Part shown: positions 12,293 to 43,205 of the stretch, piece after piece
Position numbering within the stretch: the stretch's first letter is position 1
Layout: the number at the start of each line of letters is the position of its first letter
DNA from: a virus
DNA length: 47,941 nucleotides
IMG/VR virus record: IMGVR_UViG_3300033571_002930
Span: 1 to 47,941 of that record
Strand: one strand, 5' to 3'
Made by a program: the position numbers and the translations under genes
Notes under the pieces: model-generated
What the model saw: the letters and a program-made list of their open reading frames with translations, nothing else
Database searches by the model: none
What the model was told of the DNA's origin: nothing

Positions 12293-12602
12293 AATTGACG
12301 TACAGAAACGAGACGTCTACGAAATTGAAATGAAGGGTGGCGACTTCAGAGAACTGTATGGTGTTATCGGCAACAACTGCACCTGCTTCTGCGCACCTAT
12401 AAGGTTTGACAATGACGACACCATGTTCTCGGATGACGAGATACTTCTTCGCCCCAACGACATTGTGGGCGGGTTCATAATGCCCTATTGGTCATATCCC
12501 ATCTACAACAATGCGGTCATCATAGGCGCTGATGACGAGGGTGACAGCGTAAGCGCCAAGTCAGATATCAATGAAATTAAAAACCAAATCACATTCATAT
12601 GA
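12279..12602 (+). CDS. Unknown protein (107 aa)
   Basis: A 107-residue protein; start at 12279, where ATGAGAGC overlaps the end of the previous gene; an earlier in-frame ATG would extend the overlap. Begins MRAIKIDVQKRDVYEIEMKG, has a cysteine cluster NNCTCFCAPIRF (Cys33, 35, 37 region) and a strand-rich middle part with GGFIMPYWSYPIYNNAVIIG, resembling a small beta protein. Stop overlaps the SprT-like gene start (ATGA). Function unknown. Confidence 0.65.
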   Translation: MRAIKIDVQKRDVYEIEMKGGDFRELYGVIGNNCTCFCAPIRFDNDDTMFSDDEILLRPNDIVGGFIMPYWSYPIYNNAVIIGADDEGDSVSAKSDINEIKNQITFI

Positions 12603-13039
12603 CACTACAAGATGCTGAGGACTTGGCGTTTGAGCTGATGCTTGAGCATGGTCTCATAGACATCGGTTGGACGTTCAAGTTTGACAATGCCCGTCGCAGG
12701 TTCGGCGTGTGTAACTACACCAAGAAACGCATTGGCTTGTCAGCACCGCTGACAAAAATCAGGGAGCCTGACAACGTACGAAACACTATATTGCACGAGA
12801 TTGCTCACGCCTTGGTAGGCAGGGGGCATGGTCACGACAGCGTATGGCGTAGCAAGGCCATTGATATTGGGTGCAACGGACAGCGCTGTTCAAACGATGC
12901 GACCATCAAGGGCAAGTGGGTGGCAGTGTGTCCTGCGGGACACACCCACTACAAGCACCGACGACCTAGAGCCAACTCATCATGCGGGCTATGCAGTCCC
13001 GTGTACAACGTAAAATATAAACTAAACTATTCAACTTAA
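12599..13039 (+). CDS. SprT-like zinc metalloprotease
   Basis: A 146-residue protein with HEIAHALVGRGHGHD: His66, Glu67 and His70 of the zinc site, with His77 or His79 as the likely third ligand, followed by a C-terminal ribbon with Cys residues near 92-110 and CGLC near the end. This arrangement matches the SprT-like family, related to Spartan proteases that cut DNA-protein crosslinks. A phage copy could remove host proteins from DNA. It starts in an ATGA overlap and ends directly before the methyltransferase ATG, so both are coupled. Confidence 0.85.
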   Translation: MTLQDAEDLAFELMLEHGLIDIGWTFKFDNARRRFGVCNYTKKRIGLSAPLTKIREPDNVRNTILHEIAHALVGRGHGHDSVWRSKAIDIGCNGQRCSNDATIKGKWVAVCPAGHTHYKHRRPRANSSCGLCSPVYNVKYKLNYST

Positions 13040-14008
13040 ATGAGACACGGATCCTTATTCAGCGGTATAGGCGGCTTTGACTTGGCTGCCGAGTGGATGG
13101 GTTGGCAGAACGTATTCCATTGTGAGTGGATGCCATTCCCCCGACAGATATTAAAACATTATTGGCCAAACGCAATCTCTTATCATGACATTACTCAAAC
13201 AGACTTCACTATTCACAGAGGATGTATTGACATCCTTACAGGTGGCTTCCCCTGCCAACCCTACTCACTCGCAGGAAAACGACTCGGCAAAAACGATGAG
13301 CGCCACTTGTGGCCTCACATGCTTAGAGCTGTTCAAGAAATTAGACCAACCTACGTCGTGGGCGAAAACGTTCGTGGCATCTTTAATTGGTCAGGAGGGT
13401 TGGTATTCGAAGAGGTGTGTGCTGACTTGGAAGGTTGCGGCTACGAAGTACAACCGATATTACTTGCAGCTGCAAGTGTCGGTGCGCCGCATCGCAGAGA
13501 GCGATGTTGGTTCGTTGCTACCGACTCCATGTCGCTTCGACTACAACACGGCGAGGAGTCAGGAGAAGTGGGACGCAGACAAGCAGAAGTACAAGGACAA
13601 GGGGGTCAACCTTCAGATGCCACTCAAGCAGATGGCGAAGTTTCGTATGCTTCCGACACCGACAGCTTTCGACAGTTCATCGTCAGTAGGGACAATGAAG
13701 TCAACGCAAGTGAAGGATGGCAGTATGCACAGCATGACGCTGAGTCGGTTGGCATCAAAAGATGGTGGGAAGAGTTCCCAACTCAACCCCCGCTTTGTGG
13801 CGGAGATGATGGGCTTCCCACCGAATTGGACGGAATTACCTTTTCAAGGTGGCGCAAAGAGTCAATAATGGGTTACGGCAATGCGATTGTACCGCAAGTG
13901 GCCTATAAAATATTCAAAACAATAAACGATTTACATGACGATACTTCTAATAATATCAGTATGCTACGCAGTAGTAGCAATAATAATAGGAATAAAAAAC
14001 AGAAATGA
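13040..14008 (+). CDS. DNA (cytosine-5-)-methyltransferase
   Basis: A 322-residue C5-MTase transferring methyl from S-adenosylmethionine to cytosine in DNA. Motif I is SGIGGFDLAAEWMG (8-21), motif IV GGFPCQP with catalytic Cys72, motif VI ENV (112-114), motif VIII HRRERCW (151-157) and motif X GYGNAIVPQVAYKIF (278-292). The target-recognition region (about 160-275) is low in hydrophobic residues, unlike most. That region is also read in the +1 frame by a 227-codon gene. No cognate restriction enzyme is adjacent, so self-protection against host restriction is the likely role. The tail after motif X is Asn/Ser-rich. Confidence 0.95.
   Translation: MRHGSLFSGIGGFDLAAEWMGWQNVFHCEWMPFPRQILKHYWPNAISYHDITQTDFTIHRGCIDILTGGFPCQPYSLAGKRLGKNDERHLWPHMLRAVQEIRPTYVVGENVRGIFNWSGGLVFEEVCADLEGCGYEVQPILLAAASVGAPHRRERCWFVATDSMSLRLQHGEESGEVGRRQAEVQGQGGQPSDATQADGEVSYASDTDSFRQFIVSRDNEVNASEGWQYAQHDAESVGIKRWWEEFPTQPPLCGGDDGLPTELDGITFSRWRKESIMGYGNAIVPQVAYKIFKTINDLHDDTSNNISMLRSSSNNNRNKKQK
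13185..13868 (+). CDS. Gene nested in +1 frame of the methyltransferase
   Basis: A 227-codon frame wholly inside the methyltransferase gene, starting at ATG 13185 and ending just where motif X begins. The product looks protein-like: MTLLKQTSLFTEDVLTSLQV, then LTCLELFKKLDQPTSWAKTF, GQEGWYSKRCVLTWK and two LLPTP/LPTP motifs, ending NPRFVAEMMGFPPNWTELPF. I recall proteins with this set of motifs next to or fused to phage Dcm-type enzymes, sometimes annotated as hypothetical. It is rich in Trp, Leu and Pro, unlike the host frame here. A role with the methyltransferase is inferred. Whether both frames are translated needs data. Confidence 0.7.
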   Translation: MTLLKQTSLFTEDVLTSLQVASPANPTHSQENDSAKTMSATCGLTCLELFKKLDQPTSWAKTFVASLIGQEGWYSKRCVLTWKVAATKYNRYYLQLQVSVRRIAESDVGSLLPTPCRFDYNTARSQEKWDADKQKYKDKGVNLQMPLKQMAKFRMLPTPTAFDSSSSVGTMKSTQVKDGSMHSMTLSRLASKDGGKSSQLNPRFVAEMMGFPPNWTELPFQGGAKSQ

Positions 14009-14809: not shown

Positions 14810-15388
14810 ATGAGCAATTCAGTTTTTCAGACGCTGTCCTCCGTCAACATGAAGGACAAGGTTGAGCGCAAAGGTCAGCTCGACTACATTTCTTGGGCCA
14901 ACGCATGGGCCGTGTTGAAAGCCCACTACCCTGACGCACAGCGTAAGGTGTACGAATGCGATCAAACAGGATTCAACTACTTCACCGATGGGCGTACCTG
15001 TTGGGTAAAGGTGGGCATCACAGTCAACGACTTAGAACACATTGACTTCCTGCCCGTCATGGACTTCAGAAACAACGCCATTGGCGTAGACAAGGTCACC
15101 TCTATGGATGTGAACAAGACCATTCAGCGTAGCACAGCAAAGGCTATCGCTATGCACGGACTTGGTATATTCCTTTGGACAGGAGAAGATATACCTGACG
15201 CCGACACGCCTGTAGCCGAGCCAAAAGAACTTGAGGTGTTGTCACCCAAGTCTGACAATTGGGAGAAGGTGAAGGTATACATACAAGCCAACAAGGCTTT
15301 GGGCGTAGACAAGATTGTTGCCCAACTATCACGAAAGTATAAAATCACCGCTCCTGTTCAAAAGGAGATTAACCTGCTTGTAAAATGA
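14810..15388 (+). CDS. Rad52/Sak-type single-strand annealing protein (DUF1071)
   Basis: A 192-residue protein with the DUF1071/Sak-type core: FQTLSSVNMKDKVERKGQLD, YISWANAWAVLK, TMDVNKTIQR-like (TSMDVNKTIQRSTAKAIAMH) and GLGIFLWTGEDIP. These proteins anneal complementary single strands during phage recombination and replication. The C-terminal 55 residues are less conserved and may contact SSB. The stop overlaps the exonuclease start (ATGA), so annealase and nuclease form a coupled pair. Confidence 0.88.
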   Translation: MSNSVFQTLSSVNMKDKVERKGQLDYISWANAWAVLKAHYPDAQRKVYECDQTGFNYFTDGRTCWVKVGITVNDLEHIDFLPVMDFRNNAIGVDKVTSMDVNKTIQRSTAKAIAMHGLGIFLWTGEDIPDADTPVAEPKELEVLSPKSDNWEKVKVYIQANKALGVDKIVAQLSRKYKITAPVQKEINLLVK

Positions 15389-16119
15389 GCCAAATAATTG
15401 AGACGCTTAAAAACGACGCAGAGTACTACAGCGGACTCGGCAAGAACTACCTCTCCAATTCTGACATCGGGGCCTTGCTTACTAACCCACAAGACTTCAG
15501 AAAGCCGAGGGAGGACAACAAGTCTTTTGCCGAGGGCCGTCTGTTCCATCAGTTATTGTTGGAGCCACACAAGGCCGTCGACTTCAAGATGGTTGACGTG
15601 AGTACACGCACCACCAAGGAGTACAAGAACTTCTGCGAGGACAACAACATAAAGTTCGCCCTACTGAAGAAGGAGGTTGACGATGTGTATAAAATGGTGT
15701 CGGTTATCAAGAGCAATATTGTTTTCTTTGATGAGATATACAAGCACGGCAACAACTACGAGAAGCCCGGTATCGGTGAGATTAAGGGTGAGATGTGGAA
15801 GGGCAAGTGCGATATCGAGACAGACACCATGCTCATTGACCTCAAGACGACAAGTGACATCAACAAGTTCAGGTACTCAGCCAAGTCGTACAACTACGAT
15901 TCGCAGTGTTTTATCTACGAGCGATTATTTGGCAAACCTTTGGTCTTTTTTGTCATAGACAAGGAATCACATCAGTTGGGTATTTATAGGCCAACAGAGA
16001 GCTTCCTACGAGGCGGAGAGGCTAAGGTTGAGAGGGCTGTTGATGTATACCGCAGGTATTTCAGTCAAAATGCCACCGACGACATCTTGAATTACTACAT
16101 CGAGGACACGCTCGACTAA
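15385..16119 (+). CDS. RecE-like PD-(D/E)XK exonuclease (PDDEXK_1 type)
   Basis: A 244-residue nuclease. Visible site residues are His55 in LFHQLLLEP, Asp143 in GKCDIETD, Asp152 and Lys154 in LIDLKTTSD and Gln174 in YDSQCFIYER, the pattern of RecE-like/Cas4-like PDDEXK_1 exonucleases. It should digest one strand of double-stranded DNA and make single strands for the annealing protein encoded just upstream, with which it overlaps by 4 bases. The two form a phage recombination system like RecET or Red in logic. Confidence 0.88.
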   Translation: MSQIIETLKNDAEYYSGLGKNYLSNSDIGALLTNPQDFRKPREDNKSFAEGRLFHQLLLEPHKAVDFKMVDVSTRTTKEYKNFCEDNNIKFALLKKEVDDVYKMVSVIKSNIVFFDEIYKHGNNYEKPGIGEIKGEMWKGKCDIETDTMLIDLKTTSDINKFRYSAKSYNYDSQCFIYERLFGKPLVFFVIDKESHQLGIYRPTESFLRGGEAKVERAVDVYRRYFSQNATDDILNYYIEDTLD

Positions 16120-25646: not shown

Positions 25647-26046
25647 GACAGAGCAGGACTTGGTCAGGGAGAAGAAAGCTATTGAGAAGTTTACTGAGAT
25701 GAAGTCATACCGATTCCAAAAGTTGGATAAGTTTGACATAGACTACAAGATATTGGATACTGACGGCTCCCACGTTGGTTACGCAGAGGTTAAGGGTAGG
25801 ATACGCTTTATGCGGGACGCCTACCCACTCCCTGTGTCAGTAGCAAAGGTTGTGAAGTTGTTAGCCAAGCGCACAGACTGTTGGCTTATATGGGCCTGCG
25901 ATGATGGTATCATATACGGCGACCCCAAAGAGTTAGTAGGAGAGGTTAGGTGGGGCGGGACTACTCCACGCCCCGGTAGCTATAATGACCTTGAACTAAT
26001 GGCATATTACCATAAGCAGAAGGCGCTCAGATATGTAAGGTATTAA
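25633..26046 (+). CDS. PD-(D/E)XK-like protein (137 aa)
   Basis: A 137-residue protein with DKFDIDYKILDTDGS and GYAEVKGRIRF: candidate Asp35/Asp37, Glu52 and Lys54 in the order of PD-(D/E)XK nucleases. It is followed by AKRTDCWLIWACDDGIIYGD (strand) and a basic tail. Likely a nuclease, but the exact family is not recognised and the acidic residues are not proven. Its stop overlaps by 4 bases the stop of the giant late gene, so the early and late transcripts converge here with no clear terminator. Confidence 0.65.
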   Translation: MKIFETEQDLVREKKAIEKFTEMKSYRFQKLDKFDIDYKILDTDGSHVGYAEVKGRIRFMRDAYPLPVSVAKVVKLLAKRTDCWLIWACDDGIIYGDPKELVGEVRWGGTTPRPGSYNDLELMAYYHKQKALRYVRY

Positions 26047-29000
26047 GGACCTGTCCTTCTGAATCTAAGCGTACGCTTGTTTTCAAATCTAAGTCTCTGT
26101 CTTTTCGGTTTAGGAGTGTAATTACGCTCTATATCTTCCTGCTCTCTCATATACTCCCTCAATTTCTTTTCAGCCTCAATCTCTCCCCTGTTCTCCATGT
26201 AGTACTTAGTTCCTTCGCCAAATGTTCTTTCATATAAATCAGGGTCATAACGCTTCATGTCTGACTTAGAGTCGTACCCCTGCAACAGCTCTTCCATCTT
26301 CTTCTTTTCGTTTCTCCTCTCTTTTTTATCCATTCCTTTTTCAAGTTCCTTTCTTATTTTAAGGAGTTCCCTTATCACGTCAGGGTCGTTTTGTTGGTCT
26401 ATCAGTACATTTATTGATTTAATCTTTTCTTTCTTTGTTTCTTGTCTTTCTTTTTTACCTTCGGCCTTATCCTTCTGCTCTTGAGGAGTCAGTTTTGATT
26501 CTACCTTAGCGCCTTTCTTTATTATCTTGATGGCGTCTTTAACTATGGTATTAGTCTCAGCAAGACCAAGCCCTGACAAAGACAACAGTGATATCAATGC
26601 CATGTTACCCATAGCGTCTCTAGACTCATCATTTAACTTCTTGACTCTTCCGAAGTCGTCTTTAAAGTCTCCTGTAGACCAAAGATTGATAGCTTCTGCT
26701 GTCTGACCAATCCTTGAAGGCACAACACCTAGCAGACCAAATGCCTTTGTTATGTCTTGCTTTGACATACCATCAAACACATTCAGCTTGTCCTTGTCCT
26801 CTATGTCAGCCAAGTCTTGGGTTATATCAAATAACATGTTAGCTCCGTAAGATGTTGCAGCGTCAAATGGCGGCAGTGGTGAGAAGAAGTCGTTGACAAC
26901 GCCTGTTGCTGAACTCTTAATCATGGTGTTCATGTACTTATCTTCCTGCTCTTCTGTTGGCTCGTTTCCAATAAGCGCATTTGCTACCTGCCAAAGACCA
27001 TAACCTATGGCAACTCTTAGACCATTGAACATAGCAGCCTCTACTCCTGTACCTGCCAATGACCTAGCAGCGTCTAACTTCTCTTGCTTTGTAGCCACAT
27101 CGCTGAATATGGTAAACATGTCGTTGCCCATCCTTGACTTTTGGTTCATCCTAAAGTTTGAAAATGGCATGAGCGTCTGAACAAACAACTTCTCAAAAGT
27201 ATTTTGGCTTTTAAACATACCACCTTGCAATTCTCTGAGTGATACGTTCTGCTGTCTTCTTACTTGAGAGTCGGCATAGTCAGCAGCCTTTTCGTTTAAC
27301 TTATGCGTTGTATAGTCTATAGATAATTTACCTACTTGAATACCTCTGCTTTTCAATAAAGCGCTGTACAATTCTTTTGACTCAGAGACTGCATTTTTAT
27401 TTGATTCTGATGGGTCTTGCTCATATTCTCTTTCCCAAAATTTAACACTTTCTCTTTGCTCAATAAATGGATTTTTCTTCCATCTTTCCGCCCAATCGAC
27501 ATCTATTTCATGAGCATTGGGGTCATTCAATATCTCCTCAGCTTCTTTATTATATTTTTCAAGCAATTTACTTTCATTCTCAGTCATTTTCATCGCCTCA
27601 GTTTCATACAACTTATTGTCCCTTAGATACTTCTCATAATAAGCCAACCAAGATGCTTTAGCTACCCAAACGTCGGGATTCTTAAGTGTATACTTAAGCA
27701 TAGCCTTATTTGCGTTCTCTATAGCGTCTATAGATTTTCCGCCTAATGACTCAGAAGCATTTTTAATCATTGAGTTAACATCTTTGATATTGACCATGGA
27801 CTCTTGTCCTCTAACGGCAACATCCCTTCCTGACCTGTTTACAAAATCCAACCCACCTCTTGTAAGTGCAGCTATCGCACTCATGGTATTTACAACACCT
27901 GCGTTTGTCATTGTATTACCAAGCATTGGTACAACCTGCTTTGCAGGCTGAGTTACTCCTGACAATGACATGTTAACGCCCAATGTAGCAATGTTATTCA
28001 TGGCTCTTATACCACTTGACAACTCTGATTGGTCGTAAATGGTTTTATGTCTCATATCTCTGACATAAGAGCTGATTACATTTCTTAAAACGTCATAGTC
28101 TTTGCTACCTTCAAACATTGCCTGAAAGAACGGAGAGTCTACGGCTGATTTCAAGCGGGCTACCTTGGAAGCTGTGTTTATATCAATCATGGCGTCATAC
28201 AAAGACTCTGACATGTTCTTATTGAAAGAGTAGTCAACATACATATCTCTCGGAGGCTTATTCTTTGTGGCCTCCATAATTACGCCCGTCTCTCCTGTGT
28301 ATATACCACCTCTATTAGCCATAAATACCGACTCGATCTCACCAATCTCTCTTGGCTTTGACTTTATATACTTTATTGTTCTAGGAGTATAGTTCAAATC
28401 CTTGCCCAATCTTCTGTTATAAACTGATTCCAAAAGCTCAGACAATGGACCAAAATGACTGCTCCATTCGTTAATCCACCAATCAATAGCCTCAGCATTT
28501 TTTTCATTCATTTTACTCTTAACCTCTTTAGCATTATTCGAGTCCTTTACTATTTTATCATAAACCTTCTGATGCAACTCTCCTTTCTTTATTAAGTCAT
28601 CGTCTTTTGATTCTTTGAGTTTTTTAATATCTTCTTTAATAGACTCTTTCTTTGCATTGAACTCTGCTGCTATCTGCTCAGGCGTACCTTCTGTACTTCT
28701 AAGCAAATCAGCATACATACCTCTCTCCACATCATTTTCTGCTGTGTTGAAGTCGCCCTTGTTGAATTTATCTATAAACGCTTTTATCCTGTCTTGGGCT
28801 ACCCTAACACCTTTAGCGTGTCCATTTATGACGTCAGTAAGTCCAATAACTTTTGATACTTCTGCTGCTATCCCCGGGCTTCTGAATATCCTATCAATGA
28901 CATTGGTAACGCTACCAATCTTTTCTGCCCAAATCCTACCGAGTGTTTTAGGAAATAAGCCAAGCAGCATAATAGATTTCAATGACTTTGCCCTTACTCC

Positions 29001-32000
29001 TTTGTCGTACAATTCTTTAGTTTCAACCAATCCTTTGTACCTATCAGCCATAACAGACATCTTTGCTGTAGAACCATTGGTGATAAAGTTGTCTAAGGCA
29101 GCAGCAGCAGCATTGGCTTCTTTAACAGACAGATAAGACAGGTTCATATCCATGAACTCCTTAACCAATCTTTTCTGAGTATCGGTAAACTCAATATCGT
29201 CGCCCGTGAATGGGTCCTTTCCCGACTCAATCATTTCGTTTATTATGGCCGCATTCATCTCAAACTGCTTCTTTGCAATATCCCTAGCAGCTTTCTCCTG
29301 CTCGTCAGTTAACGGCTTGTCTTCTTTCAGCGCCTTCATCAGTTCAACAATCTGACTATAAGACATATCGGTGGCATCTATACCAAGCTCCTCCAACTGC
29401 TTCTGCTTTATCTCTGTCATCTTCTCAATCTGAGCGTCCATTGTCTCTTTTACGTAGTCAGACATCTTCTCTATGACAACAGTCTCGCCTAACTTTCTAC
29501 CCAACGACGCCTTCATAGCGTCTGCAATCTTTGTTGCATTCTCATTGTACAGGTCAATATTGTCAACCATTGACGGGTCAATCTCAGCGAAGCGTTCGCC
29601 CATCTCTTTCAAGTCCAAGTTGGTCTCTTTGTTTCTTGACAACTTGCTAACGCTCTTCCTAAGCGACTTTGCGTTGTTAAGTTTACTAGCATAATCCGCA
29701 TCAGCAAACAGCTTAGATGCATAGTCAACAAACTTTGTTATTGATTCTTCATTGAATATCTTAACCTTAGATGCTCTTTCTATGAGTGTAGCCGCCTGCT
29801 TGGCTGTTATCTTACCTCCCTTGGCCAAATCATTGATGGATTCTTTTATGGCATTTCTTGTTTTTGCCAATGCGTTAGCATGGCTTTTTATACCATTGAA
29901 AAAAGACTTAAGTTTTTCAGCCCAAATCCTTTTGTTTGTTGTAGTAACCTTACCACCTTCTTTAGCCCCTTCGAATAGCTTTGTTGGGAGCACCTCTTTA
30001 CGTCTTAAGAACCTATCCTCCAAGTACTTCTCCATCTTCTGCTGTCGCTCAGGAGAAGCCTTTTTGTATGTCTCAGTTTTCCTTAATGCTTTTTTTGCCG
30101 CCTCTATGTTCTTTGTCTTATACTCCTCAATCTCAGCCTTGGCTTTGTCCATGTTTCTCTTAAGAGCTTCACTAGGCTTACCTTTATTTACACTTTCGTC
30201 ATATGCAGCCTTTGCCTTCTCGTACTTGTCTTCTAAATATATCTTCGACTTTTCGGCATCCTCAAACTCAAACTTAATCTCTTCCATCGCCTTATTAATA
30301 TCAGCAACATCACCGAACAACTCCTCAGGCTTGGGCGCTTTCTTTTCTTTTAACTCAAATCTCTCTCTCATATCTCTTACCAAAGACTCACGCTGAACAT
30401 CAGAAGCTGATTTATATGTCTCACTCTCCTCTAATATCTTCATTGCCTCCTCAAGATTGCCTTCAGTATACTTCTTCAGCTCATTCTTGGCCTCTTGTAT
30501 ATCTTCCTTTAGTCTTTGCTCTGTAAGTGATCCTTTTCTATACCTTTCGCTTTTCTCGTATTTATTGTACGACTCTGTCCTACTTTTAACCTCTTCTGAC
30601 CAATATTCCTTTTTGTTAGTAGCGAAATCAGCGTAGTCCTGAATTTCATTAATCGTTTTTTCATAGTCAGGCAATTCAAGCAAATCGCCTTTTTCTTTTG
30701 CGTAAGACAATGCTGACTTGACATCATCTTCTGAAACCTTATTTTCAGCAGATACTTTTTTTATTGCATCACGCAATTTCATACCTCCTTCAACCAATAC
30801 CTTTACTCCTTTCACAACCAACCTTAATGTTTCAAGAGGAAAGAATCTCATAAACTCATTAGCCGCTGCACCAAATTTTGTCTTTTCGGTAAGATTTTTA
30901 TCTATCCTATCCAAAAAGTCATATACCTTCTTTAAGTTGTCTTTCTGACTTGTATCGGCATCCAACAAATCTTCTATTTCATTTTTTGGCTTTTCAGGCT
31001 CGGCTGCTTTTGTTGAATCTTCCATCTTCTTGTTTATATCAGCCAATTCAGTTTCTAATGCCGTTCTCTCTATTAATTGATCTCCAATGGTAACAGTACC
31101 TTTGCCATTATCAGGCTGAGCTAAAGCTGTTTCTATTTCTTCTTTGCGCTTTTGCTCTTCGGTCTTAACGACATCAAGTTCTTGGTCTCCTTCGACCACT
31201 TCTTGCAATCCCATTTCGGATTGTTTTGCGCGTAACACGCTTTCATTTGTTGTAGGTTTTTGAACGGCATATGTATCAGTTATATGTTGTTGTAATTCTT
31301 TTAATGGTATTGTCTGCGTCTCCTCACCCTTAGTTAGGATGACACTATCATCTTTTACCTCTGCCACGTCCCACTGCTCCATCTCTTTTGCAGCGTCAGG
31401 GTTCCACATCACCTTGTCTCCGATGGTAACCTTTACATCTTCAGGCTTAATCTCAGACACCTCTGAGTACTTCCCTTCTGATATCTGCCCCAAGAAGTTA
31501 TCTATTTCGGTAACTCTATCTCTCTGCTTCTTTGTAAGAGCAGGGTCGCCTTTTTCAATCTGACTTTTCAACAACACCTTCTCTTGAAGGAGCCCAAGAG
31601 ATTTTCTCTTCTGCGCATTTGTAAGACCATCAGGCAGCGACTTCATTAGTGAAGCCAACTCCTGATAGGACCTTAACTGCAACTCTCCCTGTTCTTTTGT
31701 TATCTTTCCGTCTATAATATCCTGTTTTACCTTGAGTGTAGTCAATGAGTTGAACATATCGTCCTTACTCATAAGGTCAAACATCTCTAAATGCGAGTCG
31801 CTTATTCCATTGAAGTTGTTTTTGGCTGCGGCTGACTTCAACACCTCAGGGGAAGCCAATATAGTTCCGCCTATACCCATTGATATTCCCGATTCAACTA
31901 AATGAGAAAAGAAGTCCCCGATGCTTTCGGGAGTATTGAAAGACTTCATGTAGTTTCCGCCTTCATCCTTTCTGTCTTTTACTTGATTGTACAATTCCTT

Positions 32001-34139
32001 TATACCAATTGTACCCGCCTCCATCTTTACACCCGTTTCAAAACCATGCACAAAACCTTTACCTGCCACAAGAGCACCTCTTGCGATTCTACTCTTAACT
32101 TCGTTTTGTACAAAGTTCCTAAATGTAGTGGCTGTAAAGTCAGCCCCTAAGGCACCCATCGCTTTAGCCGTCACTCTGTTTGCAAACTGCTTCACACCGG
32201 GAACCTTGCCAAGGCCAAGCTCACTTACAACGCCCATTGTTATACCAACAGGCACAGCAACTAATTCTCTTTCACCGGGAGGGATTCCTGCATCTTCTGC
32301 CTCAATCATAGTATCGTTATATCCCTGAGCAGCAAACACAGCACCTCCTGCTATAGGACCTGCGATGGCCCCTGCCGCTAATGCGGGGGCCATACTACCC
32401 AATCCCAACACAGCAGCATTGGCAACATTCTTTTCGCTCATGGCAGCAGTCCACTGTTCTGTCGTTGACTTGTCGCCAAAGTTATCTACGAAGAAATTAG
32501 TTATGCCCCTTCTCAATTCGTCTCTCTGTCTTACCATCTCAGGCTGACCTGCCATATATGGATACATAGCCACATTACCCGCCATTACTCCTAGGTCAAC
32601 AGCACCTGCCAACAGGCTTCCTGTGCCTCTTAATTCGCCTCTAGTCAATGCGCCTATCCATGTGCCTTGCTCGCTTTTCATCATGAAGTAATCACCAACT
32701 GACTTTTCTACATCCTTATACTTTACTGAAGATGCATAGTACCTGTCAGCATCTATAGAGTTGGCGTTTGCTATTGCTCTCTGTTTCATATCAATAGCTT
32801 CGTCATATCTTTTATTGTACGCATCGTCCCTTTGGTCTTCGGGTACTTTATTTAGTTCCTCAAACATTTTGTCTGCCATTGCAGACTCTTTTGAATAAGA
32901 GTTTATTTTTGCATTTATAGCATTGTATTCGTCAGAAGCTGATTTTATTGAATCTTCCGCTTGCTTTGTTGTTTCGTACTTGACTTTCTCTCCTCTGTAC
33001 ATCGACTCGTACTTAGCCAAGTCTTTGATATTTTGTGCGTTCTCTCTGATGAACATCTTCAGTTCAGAGGCAGGCTCTGCACCTTCCTTTTCAAGTCCTT
33101 CTTCATAACCAAACAACTTTCCTAATACACTAAGTACAGGGTTCCCTGTTGTCAAGTCTTGGTATAAATTTGTTGGGATTGGTATGTCTTTCTTTTTGCC
33201 GTTTGGCGCTGTAACAGTCACGTTGTTGGTTATACCTGACTCTTCAAACTTGAAACCAAGAGGGCCAAACTTGTAGTTAAGCTGAGGCACAACAAACTCC
33301 TCTTCCTTAGACATCAATTCAGGCGTAACGCCTTCAACTTGCTCAGTGACAAATTGAGGCAGATTACGCTTCTGCTCTCTTTGTTGTATCTGTTGTTGTA
33401 CTTTTTGTTGTTGTTGGATTGGGGGTACGCCTGCCCGTGTGCCTTCGCTTACGGCAGGTTGCGGCTTAAAAGGAGCCATAAAATCTTCTCCTTCTTTTCC
33501 TCCCCAAACACCGCCTTGCAACCCATCCCTCATATTATAGACGGACTCAACTGAAAATGTAGGGTGATTTGGTTTTTTACCATAATCGCTCCAATGCCAT
33601 TGATTATCTACGGGACTTATTCCTCCTGAATCTTTATTTAAAAACGCAGCTCTAAAGTCGTAGTTATACCCATATCCATTTCTTTTATAAAAATCATAGT
33701 CGCCTTGGGATATTCTGCCCAATTTAACTTGCGAATCAAGCCATTTTTGAAACTCTTGCTCTTTTTGCTGAGGTAGTTTAGTCTCGTATCTTTTAGAGTC
33801 TACATTGTATAATGGCTTAGGCTCCTCTTCATTTTGTTCTGATGTTGATGCCGATGAAGATTGGTCCGATGACGAAACCGATTGAATGGACTTTTTTTTT
33901 AAAAGGTCCTCGGCATTGTATGCGTTAGCAACAGGGCGTTGCTGTACGGGTGGTTGCTGAACAGGTGGTTGTTCTGTTGGTATATCAATACCTCTGCTTG
34001 ATGCCCAACTACTAAGTTTACCAACATATGCTTGGTCCTGCATATTGGTCTTGAATTGGTCAAATGTGTATCTCTTGCTGTATGTAGCATCAGCAGCAGA
34101 TATTCTGTTGTAAAGCTCTTGTAATTGATTCTCGTTCAT
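26043..34139 (-). CDS. Giant internal virion/ejection protein (2698 aa)
   Basis: A 2698-residue late protein. The N-terminus has an adaptor-like motif (AADATYSKRYTFDQFKTNMQ) and a Pro/Gln-rich linker. Two Gly/Ala-rich hydrophobic stretches at about 500-530 and 570-606 could insert in membranes. A very long charged, coiled-coil region follows, then ...SSHFGPLSELLESVYNRR near residue 1900 and a Lys/Arg-rich end. No DNA polymerase or RNA polymerase catalytic motif (DxDGD) was seen. Size, position after the other internal proteins and membrane-active stretches fit an ejection or capsid cargo protein. Exact class uncertain. Confidence 0.8.
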   Translation of the reverse strand: MNENQLQELYNRISAADATYSKRYTFDQFKTNMQDQAYVGKLSSWASSRGIDIPTEQPPVQQPPVQQRPVANAYNAEDLLKKKSIQSVSSSDQSSSASTSEQNEEEPKPLYNVDSKRYETKLPQQKEQEFQKWLDSQVKLGRISQGDYDFYKRNGYGYNYDFRAAFLNKDSGGISPVDNQWHWSDYGKKPNHPTFSVESVYNMRDGLQGGVWGGKEGEDFMAPFKPQPAVSEGTRAGVPPIQQQQKVQQQIQQREQKRNLPQFVTEQVEGVTPELMSKEEEFVVPQLNYKFGPLGFKFEESGITNNVTVTAPNGKKKDIPIPTNLYQDLTTGNPVLSVLGKLFGYEEGLEKEGAEPASELKMFIRENAQNIKDLAKYESMYRGEKVKYETTKQAEDSIKSASDEYNAINAKINSYSKESAMADKMFEELNKVPEDQRDDAYNKRYDEAIDMKQRAIANANSIDADRYYASSVKYKDVEKSVGDYFMMKSEQGTWIGALTRGELRGTGSLLAGAVDLGVMAGNVAMYPYMAGQPEMVRQRDELRRGITNFFVDNFGDKSTTEQWTAAMSEKNVANAAVLGLGSMAPALAAGAIAGPIAGGAVFAAQGYNDTMIEAEDAGIPPGERELVAVPVGITMGVVSELGLGKVPGVKQFANRVTAKAMGALGADFTATTFRNFVQNEVKSRIARGALVAGKGFVHGFETGVKMEAGTIGIKELYNQVKDRKDEGGNYMKSFNTPESIGDFFSHLVESGISMGIGGTILASPEVLKSAAAKNNFNGISDSHLEMFDLMSKDDMFNSLTTLKVKQDIIDGKITKEQGELQLRSYQELASLMKSLPDGLTNAQKRKSLGLLQEKVLLKSQIEKGDPALTKKQRDRVTEIDNFLGQISEGKYSEVSEIKPEDVKVTIGDKVMWNPDAAKEMEQWDVAEVKDDSVILTKGEETQTIPLKELQQHITDTYAVQKPTTNESVLRAKQSEMGLQEVVEGDQELDVVKTEEQKRKEEIETALAQPDNGKGTVTIGDQLIERTALETELADINKKMEDSTKAAEPEKPKNEIEDLLDADTSQKDNLKKVYDFLDRIDKNLTEKTKFGAAANEFMRFFPLETLRLVVKGVKVLVEGGMKLRDAIKKVSAENKVSEDDVKSALSYAKEKGDLLELPDYEKTINEIQDYADFATNKKEYWSEEVKSRTESYNKYEKSERYRKGSLTEQRLKEDIQEAKNELKKYTEGNLEEAMKILEESETYKSASDVQRESLVRDMRERFELKEKKAPKPEELFGDVADINKAMEEIKFEFEDAEKSKIYLEDKYEKAKAAYDESVNKGKPSEALKRNMDKAKAEIEEYKTKNIEAAKKALRKTETYKKASPERQQKMEKYLEDRFLRRKEVLPTKLFEGAKEGGKVTTTNKRIWAEKLKSFFNGIKSHANALAKTRNAIKESINDLAKGGKITAKQAATLIERASKVKIFNEESITKFVDYASKLFADADYASKLNNAKSLRKSVSKLSRNKETNLDLKEMGERFAEIDPSMVDNIDLYNENATKIADAMKASLGRKLGETVVIEKMSDYVKETMDAQIEKMTEIKQKQLEELGIDATDMSYSQIVELMKALKEDKPLTDEQEKAARDIAKKQFEMNAAIINEMIESGKDPFTGDDIEFTDTQKRLVKEFMDMNLSYLSVKEANAAAAALDNFITNGSTAKMSVMADRYKGLVETKELYDKGVRAKSLKSIMLLGLFPKTLGRIWAEKIGSVTNVIDRIFRSPGIAAEVSKVIGLTDVINGHAKGVRVAQDRIKAFIDKFNKGDFNTAENDVERGMYADLLRSTEGTPEQIAAEFNAKKESIKEDIKKLKESKDDDLIKKGELHQKVYDKIVKDSNNAKEVKSKMNEKNAEAIDWWINEWSSHFGPLSELLESVYNRRLGKDLNYTPRTIKYIKSKPREIGEIESVFMANRGGIYTGETGVIMEATKNKPPRDMYVDYSFNKNMSESLYDAMIDINTASKVARLKSAVDSPFFQAMFEGSKDYDVLRNVISSYVRDMRHKTIYDQSELSSGIRAMNNIATLGVNMSLSGVTQPAKQVVPMLGNTMTNAGVVNTMSAIAALTRGGLDFVNRSGRDVAVRGQESMVNIKDVNSMIKNASESLGGKSIDAIENANKAMLKYTLKNPDVWVAKASWLAYYEKYLRDNKLYETEAMKMTENESKLLEKYNKEAEEILNDPNAHEIDVDWAERWKKNPFIEQRESVKFWEREYEQDPSESNKNAVSESKELYSALLKSRGIQVGKLSIDYTTHKLNEKAADYADSQVRRQQNVSLRELQGGMFKSQNTFEKLFVQTLMPFSNFRMNQKSRMGNDMFTIFSDVATKQEKLDAARSLAGTGVEAAMFNGLRVAIGYGLWQVANALIGNEPTEEQEDKYMNTMIKSSATGVVNDFFSPLPPFDAATSYGANMLFDITQDLADIEDKDKLNVFDGMSKQDITKAFGLLGVVPSRIGQTAEAINLWSTGDFKDDFGRVKKLNDESRDAMGNMALISLLSLSGLGLAETNTIVKDAIKIIKKGAKVESKLTPQEQKDKAEGKKERQETKKEKIKSINVLIDQQNDPDVIRELLKIRKELEKGMDKKERRNEKKKMEELLQGYDSKSDMKRYDPDLYERTFGEGTKYYMENRGEIEAEKKLREYMREQEDIERNYTPKPKRQRLRFENKRTLRFRRTGP

Positions 34140-38168: not shown

Positions 38169-41100
38169 TTAAACTATACAATAGCATTCAAAGGTTATTG
38201 TTACACTACCCGAAGTCACCTCAGGGTATTCAGGAGTTCCGCACACAGTAAAGTTAGCGCCTCCAAGCAGATTCACAGTGGCAGGAGCGCCTGAACAATC
38301 CGTGTAATTTATTGAAGCGCTTTCCGTTGCACTATTGTTTGTAAAGTACCAAGTGTAGCATGTAGAATCTGTACAGCATCCGCAGTCGTTAAACAATATT
38401 ATATTGCAAAATCCATCATATAAAATAGGATACAATCCTATCGGAGTACATATACTTGAACTTGCAGTGAATTGTTTTATCACTTTCTCTCCACTAAAAC
38501 AATCAATGTAGTCAATCCAAACGCTAGCACCTACTATTCCCTCTATTGCAAAAGTCCAACATGACTCTTCGCATGGAGTGCAGTCGCAAGACAACGCCTG
38601 TATAATTGGCGAACCTTCAATTATTTCATACGTTTTGTTGTTCACGCAAAGTTGAATAGTTTCTCCGTCCAATACGTTAAGTGTATAAGGAGTAACTTCT
38701 CCGCATAACCCATTATTAAATAATATCTCCACATCTCCTCCGCCCGCAGGAGCTGTAACATTATAAGTAGCACAATCTTCAGGTAAACAATCTGCGCAAT
38801 TACAACAAACTTCGTCAATGCTATTGGGGTGGTAACACAACTCTGATGAAACAGAGCTTCTAAGGTCATATATCAAATAAAGATATTGACCTGACGTTGA
38901 AGGAGGAACAGCAAATACAGAGTAATACGTATTTGGACCGCCTAATATAGGAGTTGATTCTGTAGACAACGCAAGCAAAGTACTCATGTTAGAAGGAGTA
39001 TTTGTATATAGCGTACCACTTCTATAGTATCTCAGCTTATTGCTTAATATGTCAAAATTATATGTATCAAATCCAATCTTATTGGTTTGTATTTGAACTG
39101 TAGCTCCATCAGGAGGGAATCCACCTGCACCCGCATACCCTGTAAACATATTGTACGCAGACACCAAAGGATTGGATGTGCCGCTAGCAAAAAGAACCAA
39201 ATTTGATTGCGTTGGTGACACATATGTACCTGCCGCATAAAAGTATTCGGCATGTATGGTATCTCCTGAATCAGCATCTCTAGTAAGTACAATCTGAACG
39301 ATTGTCATCTCTTGAGGGTCAGGACAACTTACGGTTACATCTAAAACAACAGACCCCGTGTATGAAATACCAATATCAGCAATCTCTACATAATTAAAGT
39401 CTTTTGTAAATGTAAATGAACCACTAGAAGAAGTAGTCGGCGTAGAAACAGTAGTACCATTATAAGTTATATCAAAACTAAAGTTAGCACCGGGGTCTAT
39501 GCTTATTACATTCCAAGTTATAGTAGAGTCTCCAACCAATGGGCCCAAGTCTACACAATACTCCATCTTAGGTCCGCCATTAGCCAATGTAAACACCTGA
39601 GACACCCCACACTCCAAACATTGGTCATCTACAGGCAAGTCTCTATCTGTAGCGCAAAGCACATATTCGTTCATATAAGGGTCAAAGCCCCCTAGTTTCT
39701 GTGTATTAAATGACGCATTAAACACATCTCTAAACCAAGTACGCATACCCTGTTCCGATACCACCTTTATCTGCTCGTTAGAGTATGAGTTGCCAACCAA
39801 CTGAATGACGGCCCCTCTTTTAGCATCAGTAAAGTACCTGTCGTATCCCCACTGAACATAACTCTCAGGGTTAAAGCTGATGCCATACTTCTCAGTTCTC
39901 GCTATTTGCGTACCCAACACCTCAGGTACTGATGTGATTGCACCGCCTGCCGCAGAATCTGATAACAAGTTTTTCCCCGCCAATACATACGATATCTTGT
40001 CTTCCTGCAATACTAATACGTCAGTCTCTCTCCCGTCCAATACGTATATCGGTCCAAAAGAAACCTCTAAGTTCTTATAGTCAAGCAGACCAAGATTAAA
40101 CTCATTTAGCTTGTTAAAATTGGTCTCAGGGTTGTATATACCACTATATGTGATATCCGCAAATCTATTGGCTTCCTTGTAATCCTGAGCGGATACTGAA
40201 GTAACTCTGAGTCCCAAGCTCAATGGTTTTCCTACGATAGAGTCTCTTATCTTATAACTCTCTGCTCCGTTACCAAAAGCAAAGCAGTTGAAAAAGTTAG
40301 TGTCAACTATAGCAGGTTGGTTAAGACCAAAGTTTTGGTCCTGTACATTACCCATATGCTGACCATTGCTATCTATTTCAAAAGAAAGATTGTTCTCGTA
40401 GAATATATCAGGCAAAGCATCTGAAGGCTCTGTCTCAAATATGAAAGCACCTTCCGCTCTGAATACCTCAATGTCTGTTATTATACTTGATCTTCTTCTA
40501 GGAGGAGCTGTCCATCCCGGGCATCTTTCGGTACCCGTAATGGTAAGAACCAATCTATTTGTGACTGAACTTCTTCTAAAGAAAAAATGATTATTACACA
40601 ATTCACCTGTAACAGGACCGAATGTAGCAGATGGAATAGTTTGTACACCATAAAAAGTATTATTTATGGGACATCCTCCGCCACCAACATCCTGAACTCC
40701 TGTGTTTAATATCAACTCTACATTATCTCCGATAAACCAATCGGCCATATTATCGTAGTTGGCAGAAGAAACCAATACAGTATTTAGTATATATACTCTC
40801 TTTTCACAAAGTCCTGCACCGCCACCTGTTCCTGTTCTTTGGAATTTAATATATAGCTTTATCCTACTGCCCGCAGGTATAGTATAGTCTATATACATAC
40901 CCGGTGTAGATGGGTCCTCAATGTTCATTGGGTAGTCCATATATGGCCACTCATTGGGCGTATTCTCATCTACTTGTATAGTACCGGGAGCTATTATTGC
41001 ATTAGGGTCTTCTATAGCAGCAAACTCGCTAGGAATAATCTTCATATAAACTCCTGCGGGAGGAGTTGAGCCTGATAGAGGAGTTATAAAACCTTCTGCT

Positions 41101-43205
41101 TTTGTTTCTTTCTCAAGAACCGTAGCGTATGCGCAATTAAATACAGGACCATTACTATCTGACTTAACAATCAATCTATCTCCTTGCTCTACCTTTCTTG
41201 CATTCTCACCCTCTAAGTAAAAATATACATTATTATTGTCGGGGTCCTCAAAGAATAAGTTGCTATATATGGTCTCATAATTCTCTCTGTCAGGCTTTAT
41301 CACAAACTTGTATCTCTTAGCCCAATAAGGAGCAATCTGTGAGGTAGGTATTGTAACCTGAATAGAGTTCTTGTAACTAGACAGACTACATGATATATGC
41401 TCGGTATTGTTAAGGCTTACAAGTGCTGTACTTGACCTGTTAAACTCGTCCATATAAACGATACCAATCTCATAGTCTCTATTACTATGCAAACTCTTTG
41501 GCATCGCTATCTCTTGGAATGTAGCCTCAGAAGATACTACTTTATAATACTCAAAAGCATAGTTTGTAGGAGAAGCTGTGTCTGCATATTTAGTCGCAGC
41601 AAACTGAATCTTCACAATCGGACTGCCTGCTGTAGCAGTAGCCACAATATGCTTAGCCAATGGAGTAACACCATAGTCATACTTGGTATACGTATCCAAT
41701 GTCATTGGCGTTACGCAATTTATGTTGTCGGTGAATGTTATACCATCGCATGATAAAAACGATGGATACACCGTCTGTGTATTTGTATTCGTACCGATAG
41801 CATCTTGGAACTGAACGCTGTTTACCATGTCGGAAACAGAAGCGTAGTTCTGCGGTAAGAAGAAAGCAAAGCTAACGGTGAAGTTAGCTGTAGTATCAGT
41901 TGGGGTAACAGGCCCTGAAAACTGAGCGTGAGTAAGAGTGACATCAAAAGACAATACAGAACCCTGTACCAAATTGGCGTCTGTCAAATCTAACTCAAGC
42001 ACCGAATCAACGACAGTAACCGCACCATCAATACTATAGTTTCCTGAGCTTGTAGAGTCAGGTACATTAGTCGTTCCTATTTCTTGCGATACTAATGACG
42101 TTGTATAAGTTAATCTTGTTGGGTCGCCATTTAAGTCAATCATATCATACCCCTCAACATAGTTGCCATACATCAGCCTGTTACCCATTATAGTTTGGGC
42201 TTTAGCCAATCTAGGCACATTGTCATACAATCTAAGTATCTCTGAATCAGGCAGAACAGTAAATATCTTACTATTGGTGAATGTATACGTATAGTCTGTA
42301 TTGTCAGACAATCCTAACTCCTGCTTGTTCAGTTTCTCAATAATCTTAATGATACCACCTGATGACTGCTTGAAAAGCAAGTCGACACCAACAACAAGAG
42401 GACCGCCTGAATTGTAGGTTACAATACAAGCGTTACAGAAGTTTACCATACCCTCATTAAGTACACTGCTAATGCTGAGGTTGAATGGGTTTGGTACAAA
42501 TGATGGCTCAGACCATTGAGAAGTAGCAGAGTACTCTCCATTGGCATATCTATATCTGTAGGCAAAGCATATAAACCTTTCTGTAAGATAATTCTGCTGA
42601 CCGCCTGTTATAAATGGCTGTATTGTAGGAGACTGCGTAGGTGGCTTCTTTATAACTAAAATAGACTCTGCGCTGAATTGGTCTACGTCAGCAACAGGAT
42701 TGCTATAATTATTTCTTATATCTATAAATCTTGGTTGATTATAGTTATCAGTAAAGAATAAAAGATTCTCAATCAAGTTGACTCCCGTAATCAAATACTT
42801 TGGATTGAAGTTCAGCGTTGTTACTGCACCATTCCCATCGTCAATACTAATTACGTGATACGTTAGTATGTTTGTAAATACATTGTATGAAACAATCAAA
42901 TCCAACTTGCCCGTTGCTCCAACAGGAAAGTTTGGGTCGTGAACAAACCAATACAATGTTTCATGTGCGCTATCGGCTATAGAACCAATACAAACAGCAT
43001 CAATACTCAATGGAGTCCCGTCTGTATAGGTCAATGCAGTCAATGCGATATTACCCTTGGTGTTTTCTATGACACCAACCTCAGACAGCTCGGTAGAGCC
43101 CATTCTGATGTTCATGGCATCTATATACTCACCATCAGGAACAAGCCTCTCATCTATGAGCTTATTCATTCTACCTGCCGTAAAGTTCCTTGTAATATCT
43201 GCCAT
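38169..43205 (-). CDS. Large tail tubular/muzzle-like protein with Cys-rich C-terminus
   Basis: A 1678-residue late protein. The N-terminal part (AGRMNKLIDERLVPDGEYID, LLFFTDNYNQPRFIDIRNNY, FICFAYRYRYANGEYSATSQ, LRLYDNVPRLAKAQTIMGNR) matches the tail tubular/stabilisation type protein found in crAss-like and marine podoviruses. The middle is beta-rich. The last about 210 residues hold three cysteine modules (C-x2-(Y/W/F)...Y-x-D-C...CxC) like those of the next gene. It would form the distal tail tube. The extra modules are unusual and may add adhesin-like surfaces. Confidence 0.85.
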   Translation of the reverse strand: MADITRNFTAGRMNKLIDERLVPDGEYIDAMNIRMGSTELSEVGVIENTKGNIALTALTYTDGTPLSIDAVCIGSIADSAHETLYWFVHDPNFPVGATGKLDLIVSYNVFTNILTYHVISIDDGNGAVTTLNFNPKYLITGVNLIENLLFFTDNYNQPRFIDIRNNYSNPVADVDQFSAESILVIKKPPTQSPTIQPFITGGQQNYLTERFICFAYRYRYANGEYSATSQWSEPSFVPNPFNLSISSVLNEGMVNFCNACIVTYNSGGPLVVGVDLLFKQSSGGIIKIIEKLNKQELGLSDNTDYTYTFTNSKIFTVLPDSEILRLYDNVPRLAKAQTIMGNRLMYGNYVEGYDMIDLNGDPTRLTYTTSLVSQEIGTTNVPDSTSSGNYSIDGAVTVVDSVLELDLTDANLVQGSVLSFDVTLTHAQFSGPVTPTDTTANFTVSFAFFLPQNYASVSDMVNSVQFQDAIGTNTNTQTVYPSFLSCDGITFTDNINCVTPMTLDTYTKYDYGVTPLAKHIVATATAGSPIVKIQFAATKYADTASPTNYAFEYYKVVSSEATFQEIAMPKSLHSNRDYEIGIVYMDEFNRSSTALVSLNNTEHISCSLSSYKNSIQVTIPTSQIAPYWAKRYKFVIKPDRENYETIYSNLFFEDPDNNNVYFYLEGENARKVEQGDRLIVKSDSNGPVFNCAYATVLEKETKAEGFITPLSGSTPPAGVYMKIIPSEFAAIEDPNAIIAPGTIQVDENTPNEWPYMDYPMNIEDPSTPGMYIDYTIPAGSRIKLYIKFQRTGTGGGAGLCEKRVYILNTVLVSSANYDNMADWFIGDNVELILNTGVQDVGGGGCPINNTFYGVQTIPSATFGPVTGELCNNHFFFRRSSVTNRLVLTITGTERCPGWTAPPRRRSSIITDIEVFRAEGAFIFETEPSDALPDIFYENNLSFEIDSNGQHMGNVQDQNFGLNQPAIVDTNFFNCFAFGNGAESYKIRDSIVGKPLSLGLRVTSVSAQDYKEANRFADITYSGIYNPETNFNKLNEFNLGLLDYKNLEVSFGPIYVLDGRETDVLVLQEDKISYVLAGKNLLSDSAAGGAITSVPEVLGTQIARTEKYGISFNPESYVQWGYDRYFTDAKRGAVIQLVGNSYSNEQIKVVSEQGMRTWFRDVFNASFNTQKLGGFDPYMNEYVLCATDRDLPVDDQCLECGVSQVFTLANGGPKMEYCVDLGPLVGDSTITWNVISIDPGANFSFDITYNGTTVSTPTTSSSGSFTFTKDFNYVEIADIGISYTGSVVLDVTVSCPDPQEMTIVQIVLTRDADSGDTIHAEYFYAAGTYVSPTQSNLVLFASGTSNPLVSAYNMFTGYAGAGGFPPDGATVQIQTNKIGFDTYNFDILSNKLRYYRSGTLYTNTPSNMSTLLALSTESTPILGGPNTYYSVFAVPPSTSGQYLYLIYDLRSSVSSELCYHPNSIDEVCCNCADCLPEDCATYNVTAPAGGGDVEILFNNGLCGEVTPYTLNVLDGETIQLCVNNKTYEIIEGSPIIQALSCDCTPCEESCWTFAIEGIVGASVWIDYIDCFSGEKVIKQFTASSSICTPIGLYPILYDGFCNIILFNDCGCCTDSTCYTWYFTNNSATESASINYTDCSGAPATVNLLGGANFTVCGTPEYPEVTSGSVTITFECYCIV

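Follow-up and report, generated by a model that had tools for sequence, protein, structure and literature searches.

A gene nested in the +1 frame of a phage C5-cytosine methyltransferase gene likely encodes the motif-IX subunit of a split enzyme

Within the 47,941-nucleotide viral sequence analysed here (the window; IMG/VR record IMGVR_UViG_3300033571_002930), a C5-cytosine DNA methyltransferase (MTase) ORF at 13040-14008 entirely encloses a second ORF at 13185-13868, offset by +1. The nested ORF begins with an ATG at codon 49 of the MTase frame, its coordinates include the stop codon, and the +1 frame is stop-free from 13155 onward (237 codons). We call the MTase frame alpha and the nested frame beta, and number their residues with the prefixes M and N, respectively. 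A first-pass annotation of this DNA had noted a +1 frame open for 227 codons within the methyltransferase, quoted peptides from it, and placed its end just before motif X; the ORF and the peptides are indeed present, and the nested stop directly precedes GYGNAIVPQVA at M278-288. The features of the locus are as follows.

13040..14008, plus strand: alpha, C5-cytosine methyltransferase ORF of 322 aa, with motifs I-VIII and X and no motif IX (PF00145, M.HhaI, AF2)
13055..13087, plus strand: MTase-frame motif I, LFSGIGGFDLA, M6-16, outside the overlap (mostly invariant columns in the MTase-frame alignment)
13185..13868, plus strand: beta, nested +1-frame ORF of 227 aa, PHROG_1008 family, proposed recognition/motif-IX subunit
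13241..13267, plus strand: MTase-frame motif IV, GGFPCQPYS, with catalytic Cys72, within the overlap (mostly invariant columns in the MTase-frame alignment)
13305..13520, plus strand: nested-frame N-terminal conserved region, N41-112, with WYSKRCVLTWK (invariant residues; AF2)
13493..13519, plus strand: MTase-frame motif VIII, RRERCWFVA, M152-160 (end of the M.HhaI alignment)
13520..13774, plus strand: MTase-frame variable region, M161-245, the site of the target-recognition domain (TRD) in canonical MTases (unconserved, predicted disordered)
13776..13832, plus strand: nested-frame motif IX, SQLNPRFVAEMMGFPPNWT, N198-216 (motif-IX matrix; hhalign)
13871..13903, plus strand: MTase-frame motif X, GYGNAIVPQVA, M278-288 (conserved GNAIVPQ; AF2 helix 285-321)

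The gene that ends just before the MTase start (12599-13039) carries a LHEIAHALVGRGHGHD zinc-protease-like motif, appears SprT-like by eye and belongs to PHROG_1006, a family of unknown function. A phage recombination module lies close by, downstream of the MTase at 14810-16119, with a gene for a Sak-like ssDNA annealing protein and then an exonuclease VIII-like gene; the few neighbouring genes that were scanned included no recognisable restriction enzyme. Elsewhere in the window the minus strand bears two very long ORFs, at 26043-34139 (2698 aa) and 38169-43205 (1678 aa), and scanning the window for Rfam families and tRNAs gave no hits.

An open +1 frame of this kind could in principle be a by-product of the codon and amino-acid constraints on the MTase and no gene at all, and composition alone does predict about 100 open codons. 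Relatives were collected in two sets, one fetched with the nested protein and the other with the MTase, and in both sets both frames are open in the same phase. Across 131 non-redundant related MTase loci the +1 frame has a median open length of 255 codons versus 40 for the +2 frame, and the observed +1 length was reached in only 43 of 26,200 synonymous-codon shuffles, counts which treat related loci as independent. None of 5000 such shuffles of the window MTase kept the +1 frame open for 237 codons (mean 73, maximum 200). The long open +1 frame is absent from canonical MTases, where we found it open for 37-128 codons only (n=34). Further evidence comes from third-base identity between relatives at MTase codons sharing the same fourfold-degenerate residue, which is 0.372 on the 5' side of the nested start and 0.339 on the 3' side of the nested stop, values outside the overlap that are close to the base-composition expectation, and which rises to 0.582 in the overlapped catalytic part, 0.809 in the overlapped recognition region and 0.825 in the last overlapped part; synonymous constraint on the MTase begins and stops with the nested ORF. 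Codon periodicity shifts in the same way: outside the overlap 69% and 56% of differences fall on MTase codon position 3, and in the motif-IX stretch it is nested position 3 that takes 62% (MTase alignment) or 74% (nested alignment) of them. Pairwise identity in the variable region M161-245 is 0.18-0.23 in the MTase frame versus 0.43 over N151-197 in the nested frame, and in the second half of the recognition region conservation is higher in the nested frame than in the MTase frame (0.43 vs 0.18), with MTase-frame alignments being unreliable there. A nested-frame ATG lies between MTase codons 36 and 61 in 121 of 121 loci, at codon 48 in 83 of them, which means that the start region is conserved and the exact start codon shifts among loci. 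The by-product explanation, to which we give practically no probability, is refuted by the constraint, identity, periodicity and canonical-MTase results. Because stop-free conservation is combined with synonymous constraint confined to the overlap and a shift of periodicity to the nested frame, dual coding is supported, and on this sequence evidence we regard it as near certain that the nested ORF is a real protein-coding gene. The true dual-coding region proposed by the first-pass annotation is therefore supported by two of the computational checks it had named, since stop-free conservation of the nested frame was found in all relatives examined and synonymous-rate depression is strong and confined to the overlap.

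In canonical C5-MTases the TRD and motif IX sit between motifs VIII and X. The alpha frame carries C5-MTase motifs I, IV (PCQ), VI (ENV), VIII and X, with GGFPCQP, ENV, PH-R-R and GNA invariant in the MTase frames of 82 relatives, and lacks the in-frame TRD and motif IX of a complete monomeric enzyme. Its match to PF00145 (E=1.6e-41) covers residues 1-164 only and its alignment with M.HhaI residues 3-160 only, i.e. through motif VIII; it also matches PHROG_363. Similar to M.HhaI and other monomeric C5-MTases it has the catalytic core (I-VIII) and motif X, but unlike them it is without the small domain bearing motif IX. We built a motif-IX matrix from 26 canonical MTases of the searched genomes that have motif IX in frame (for example RRLTPREMFRLQGFPDTY), and it gave no match in the alpha frames (mean score -12.6). 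The VIII-to-X stretch of the MTase frame varies from 34 to 164 aa across relatives, is polar and unconserved, and has a median of 17% bulky hydrophobic residues vs 35% in the catalytic part, which bears out the earlier remark that the recognition region of this methyltransferase is unusually polar. In the AF2 model of alpha, residues 1-170 are mostly confident, 183-280 mostly fall below a pLDDT of 50 (183-241 and 243-255 entirely so), and 285-321 form a mostly confident helix. The model matches M.HhaI with Z ~20 over ~210 of 327 residues, the match being the catalytic core. By this model alpha has no predicted folded small (recognition) domain, and we read M161-245 as a passenger of the nested frame.

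Profile comparison assigns the nested protein to PHROG_1008 (E=3.3e-19, profile positions 37-282 of 329). Invariant positions in the alignment of its family are C46, S75, C78, L80, W82 and G109, and AF2 predicts helices at 41-52 and 58-69 and strands at 78-86 and 92-100. The best window of the motif-IX matrix in the nested protein is SQLNPRFVAEMMGFPPNWT, which scores 7.0 (shuffles average -14.2, and 1 of 2000 reached this score), and 109 of 110 nested relatives likewise have their best match at the C-terminus; the scores are weak for the homologues of N15 and epsilon15 (-9.6 and -7.5). Unprompted, hhalign paired nested residues 197-217 with the canonical motif IX RRLTPREMFRLQGFPDTY (E 0.006), at a probability of only 6% because the motif-IX match is short. 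Since matrix and hhalign both place motif IX in the nested protein, it would supply the motif that is absent from alpha.

The nested protein could also be a real protein with a role of its own, for example as a nuclease or in anti-restriction or regulation, that has been overprinted on the MTase, its likeness to motif IX being convergent or minor. Such a role would fit with the finding that it has no Pfam or NCBIfam family at threshold and no match in a sequence search against the PDB, that no counterpart of its N-terminal region (residues 1-112) was identified in canonical MTases, and that the AF2 model of the lone chain is poor (pLDDT 63.6 from a 110-sequence alignment) and without a structural match in the PDB, although a poor model of this sort might be expected for a chain that folds on a partner. 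However, the motif missing from the MTase frame is exactly the one present in the nested frame, and the nested family keeps close company with C5-MTases: of the chromosomal loci fetched with the nested profile alone, 60 of 60 have it nested, in the same phase, inside a C5-MTase, and no free-standing nested homologue was found among them. We therefore consider an independent role quite unlikely.

Additional evidence comes from Mycobacterium and Gordonia phages (L166, L167, L170 and L232), where the nested family is divided between the two frames. Here the +1 frame holds its N-terminal half (profile matches of E 5e-28 in L167 and 4e-18 in L170, weaker in L166 and L232) and the C-terminal half lies in the MTase frame (e.g. 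5e-13 in L170), with motif-IX-like blocks such as PRLAPAFSEWMMGWPAGW directly before motif X. These actinophages thus have the block in cis, between MTase motifs VIII and X, which again speaks against an independent role. That the block is found in the MTase chain in actinophages and in the nested chain in the others is the behaviour expected of an MTase recognition module.

The same actinophage arrangement, with part of the block in frame 0, could be taken to favour programmed frameshifting, in which ribosomes would read frame 0 for motifs I-VIII, +1 for the recognition region and motif IX, and frame 0 again for motif X, giving one full-length enzyme with its motifs in canonical order along the DNA (I-VIII, TRD/IX, X). 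However, two frameshifts would be required, and conservation of the nested frame already begins close to its own ATG and extends across the catalytic region, with C46, S75, C78 and W82 invariant. The synonymous constraint in the catalytic region (0.58 vs 0.37) would be needless for a shift after motif VIII, and the position of the nested ATG, between codons 36 and 61 in every one of the 121 loci, is likewise at odds with it. We judge frameshifting to be highly improbable.

Natural precedents exist for an MTase divided between two chains. M.EcoHK31I is a two-polypeptide C5-MTase recognising YGGCCR, and M.EaeI resembles it in this respect; Lee, Kam and Shaw are said to have found in 1995 that the small subunit of M.EcoHK31I is read in an alternate frame from within the gene of the large one. 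The larger subunit of M.EcoHK31I has motifs I-VIII and X, and also the predicted TRD, with motif IX in the smaller (PMC3404938). At our locus the motifs are divided in the same way, with I-VIII and X in one chain and IX in the other, and the second chain lies in an alternate frame inside the gene of the first, both here and in the relatives; the comparison is one of published motif layout. There are also differences, in that M.EcoHK31I belongs to a bacterial restriction-modification system whereas the window MTase gene appears to be an orphan, carried by a phage close to recombination genes, and in that the TRD is predicted in its larger subunit whereas the TRD region of alpha is unconserved and predicted to be disordered. 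M.AquI, an alpha/beta C5-MTase whose split falls within the variable region and whose second chain carries motif IX (PMC3404938), is likewise a natural two-chain enzyme of the sort proposed here, but its second chain also has motif X, which here is on the catalytic chain, and in our case the second ORF is nested. An out-of-frame HNH endonuclease, the ShiLan element, has been described within mycobacteriophage methylases (PMC11855218), and it too is a second protein in another frame inside a phage methylase gene; it is, however, a homing insertion in a different frame that encodes an HNH nuclease, whereas the nested frame of the window is no insertion and covers the catalytic region. We rejected an element of ShiLan type, as there was no HNH match in Pfam, PHROGs or NCBIfam and the nested frame spans conserved catalytic motifs and not an insert.

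Taken together, we consider it very probable that the locus encodes a split C5-MTase of the M.EcoHK31I kind, with a catalytic alpha and a recognition/motif-IX beta, and from the sequences we strongly infer a beta-subunit role for the nested protein. The split kind itself is already established by M.EcoHK31I. The first-pass annotation had supposed that the two proteins perhaps work together; this is now made specific by a nested protein with the motif IX that is missing from the MTase frame and an MTase frame without a predicted folded recognition domain, and the identification as a split MTase goes beyond it. The same DNA would yield two polypeptides that make up a single orphan phage C5-cytosine DNA methyltransferase. 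Frame 0 would give alpha, with the AdoMet-binding/catalytic core (motifs I-VIII, with the PCQ cysteine), a long unstructured linker and motif X, and the +1 frame, probably translated independently from its own ATG, would give beta, composed of the conserved N-terminal region, a recognition region containing LPTP repeats, and motif IX. Beta would then dock on alpha and complete the small (DNA-recognition) domain, with beta presumably providing recognition, and the resulting heterodimer would methylate the DNA of the phage itself, most likely as a means of escaping host restriction. The predicted disorder of the alpha linker suggests that beta may hold the whole TRD; alternatively, by analogy with the prediction for M.EcoHK31I, TRD residues may remain in alpha.

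The arrangement is widespread. With tblastn the nested protein matched 39 phage records, the matched sites, where annotated, being nearly all methyltransferase or hypothetical protein, and we found the nested family in the same phase in phages of Bacteroides, Porphyromonas, Paenibacillus, Lacticaseibacillus, Xanthomonas, Rhodobacter, Synechococcus and others, in Escherichia phages K1ind1, N15 and Bas73 (BASEL), in Salmonella epsilon15, and also in plasmid records. Six further MTase matches (L287-L292), missed by tblastn with the window nested protein, contain the family by profile, in the +1 frame of the MTase in four and as the annotated gene itself in two. In two of these public phage records (L289 856-1590 and L291 883-1563) the nested frame is annotated and the MTase frame is not. 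Commonly one frame alone is annotated, in some records just the nested one, and among the copies inspected only one half is called in N15 gene 58, epsilon15, BASEL Bas73 and the Lacticaseibacillus and Klebsiella-borne copies. Three chromosomal copies have stops in the MTase frame with the nested frame open, namely L217 (2874, 2994), L229 (549, 993) and L203 (2578), the stops being TGA in L217 and L229, some at expected Trp positions, and TAA in L203; these are probably decaying prophages.

Where nested relatives in the same +1 phase of a C5-MTase are annotated, they go under names such as 'Mte8-like' (K1ind1 ORF28), 'g55 internal gene' (Paenibacillus phage Shelly_56) and XYR92439 (Xanthomonas phage PhiXhv-5), and tracing the 'Mte8' label led to no function. 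PHROG_1008 itself is described as 'DNA methyltransferase', probably from position. The database names of PHROG_1008 and the annotated nested ORFs imply a methyltransferase, whereas the nested protein is without any catalytic motif, and a beta-subunit role is stated in none of the PHROG_1008-family database records that we examined. We found no description of the phage arrangement, including the possible complete transfer of the recognition domain, in open papers, most subscription journals lying outside the search. What seems to be new is the breadth of the nested split-MTase arrangement in phages, usually with one frame unannotated.

We lean, by a little, towards a broader proposal, namely that a large share of orphan phage C5-MTases are obligate two-frame heterodimers, in which the whole TRD and motif IX would have moved to the nested +1 ORF and alpha would keep a disordered passenger. 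Specificity would then evolve in one frame with little constraint from the other, and the block could pass between cis and trans as in the actinophages. In bacteria and their phages, long genes nested on the same strand are rare and their reality is disputed; the one described here has support from well over a hundred divergent loci. Annotations of many phage cytosine methyltransferases may thus describe half enzymes, and work on the annotated frame alone, for example in codon-optimised form, would silently lose the nested partner. In one published survey, phage methyltransferase genes showed no simple relation to restriction resistance (PMC8594841), and an overlooked second subunit is one possible factor to consider. 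The locus and its relatives would also offer a natural system where recognition specificity could evolve in a separate frame.
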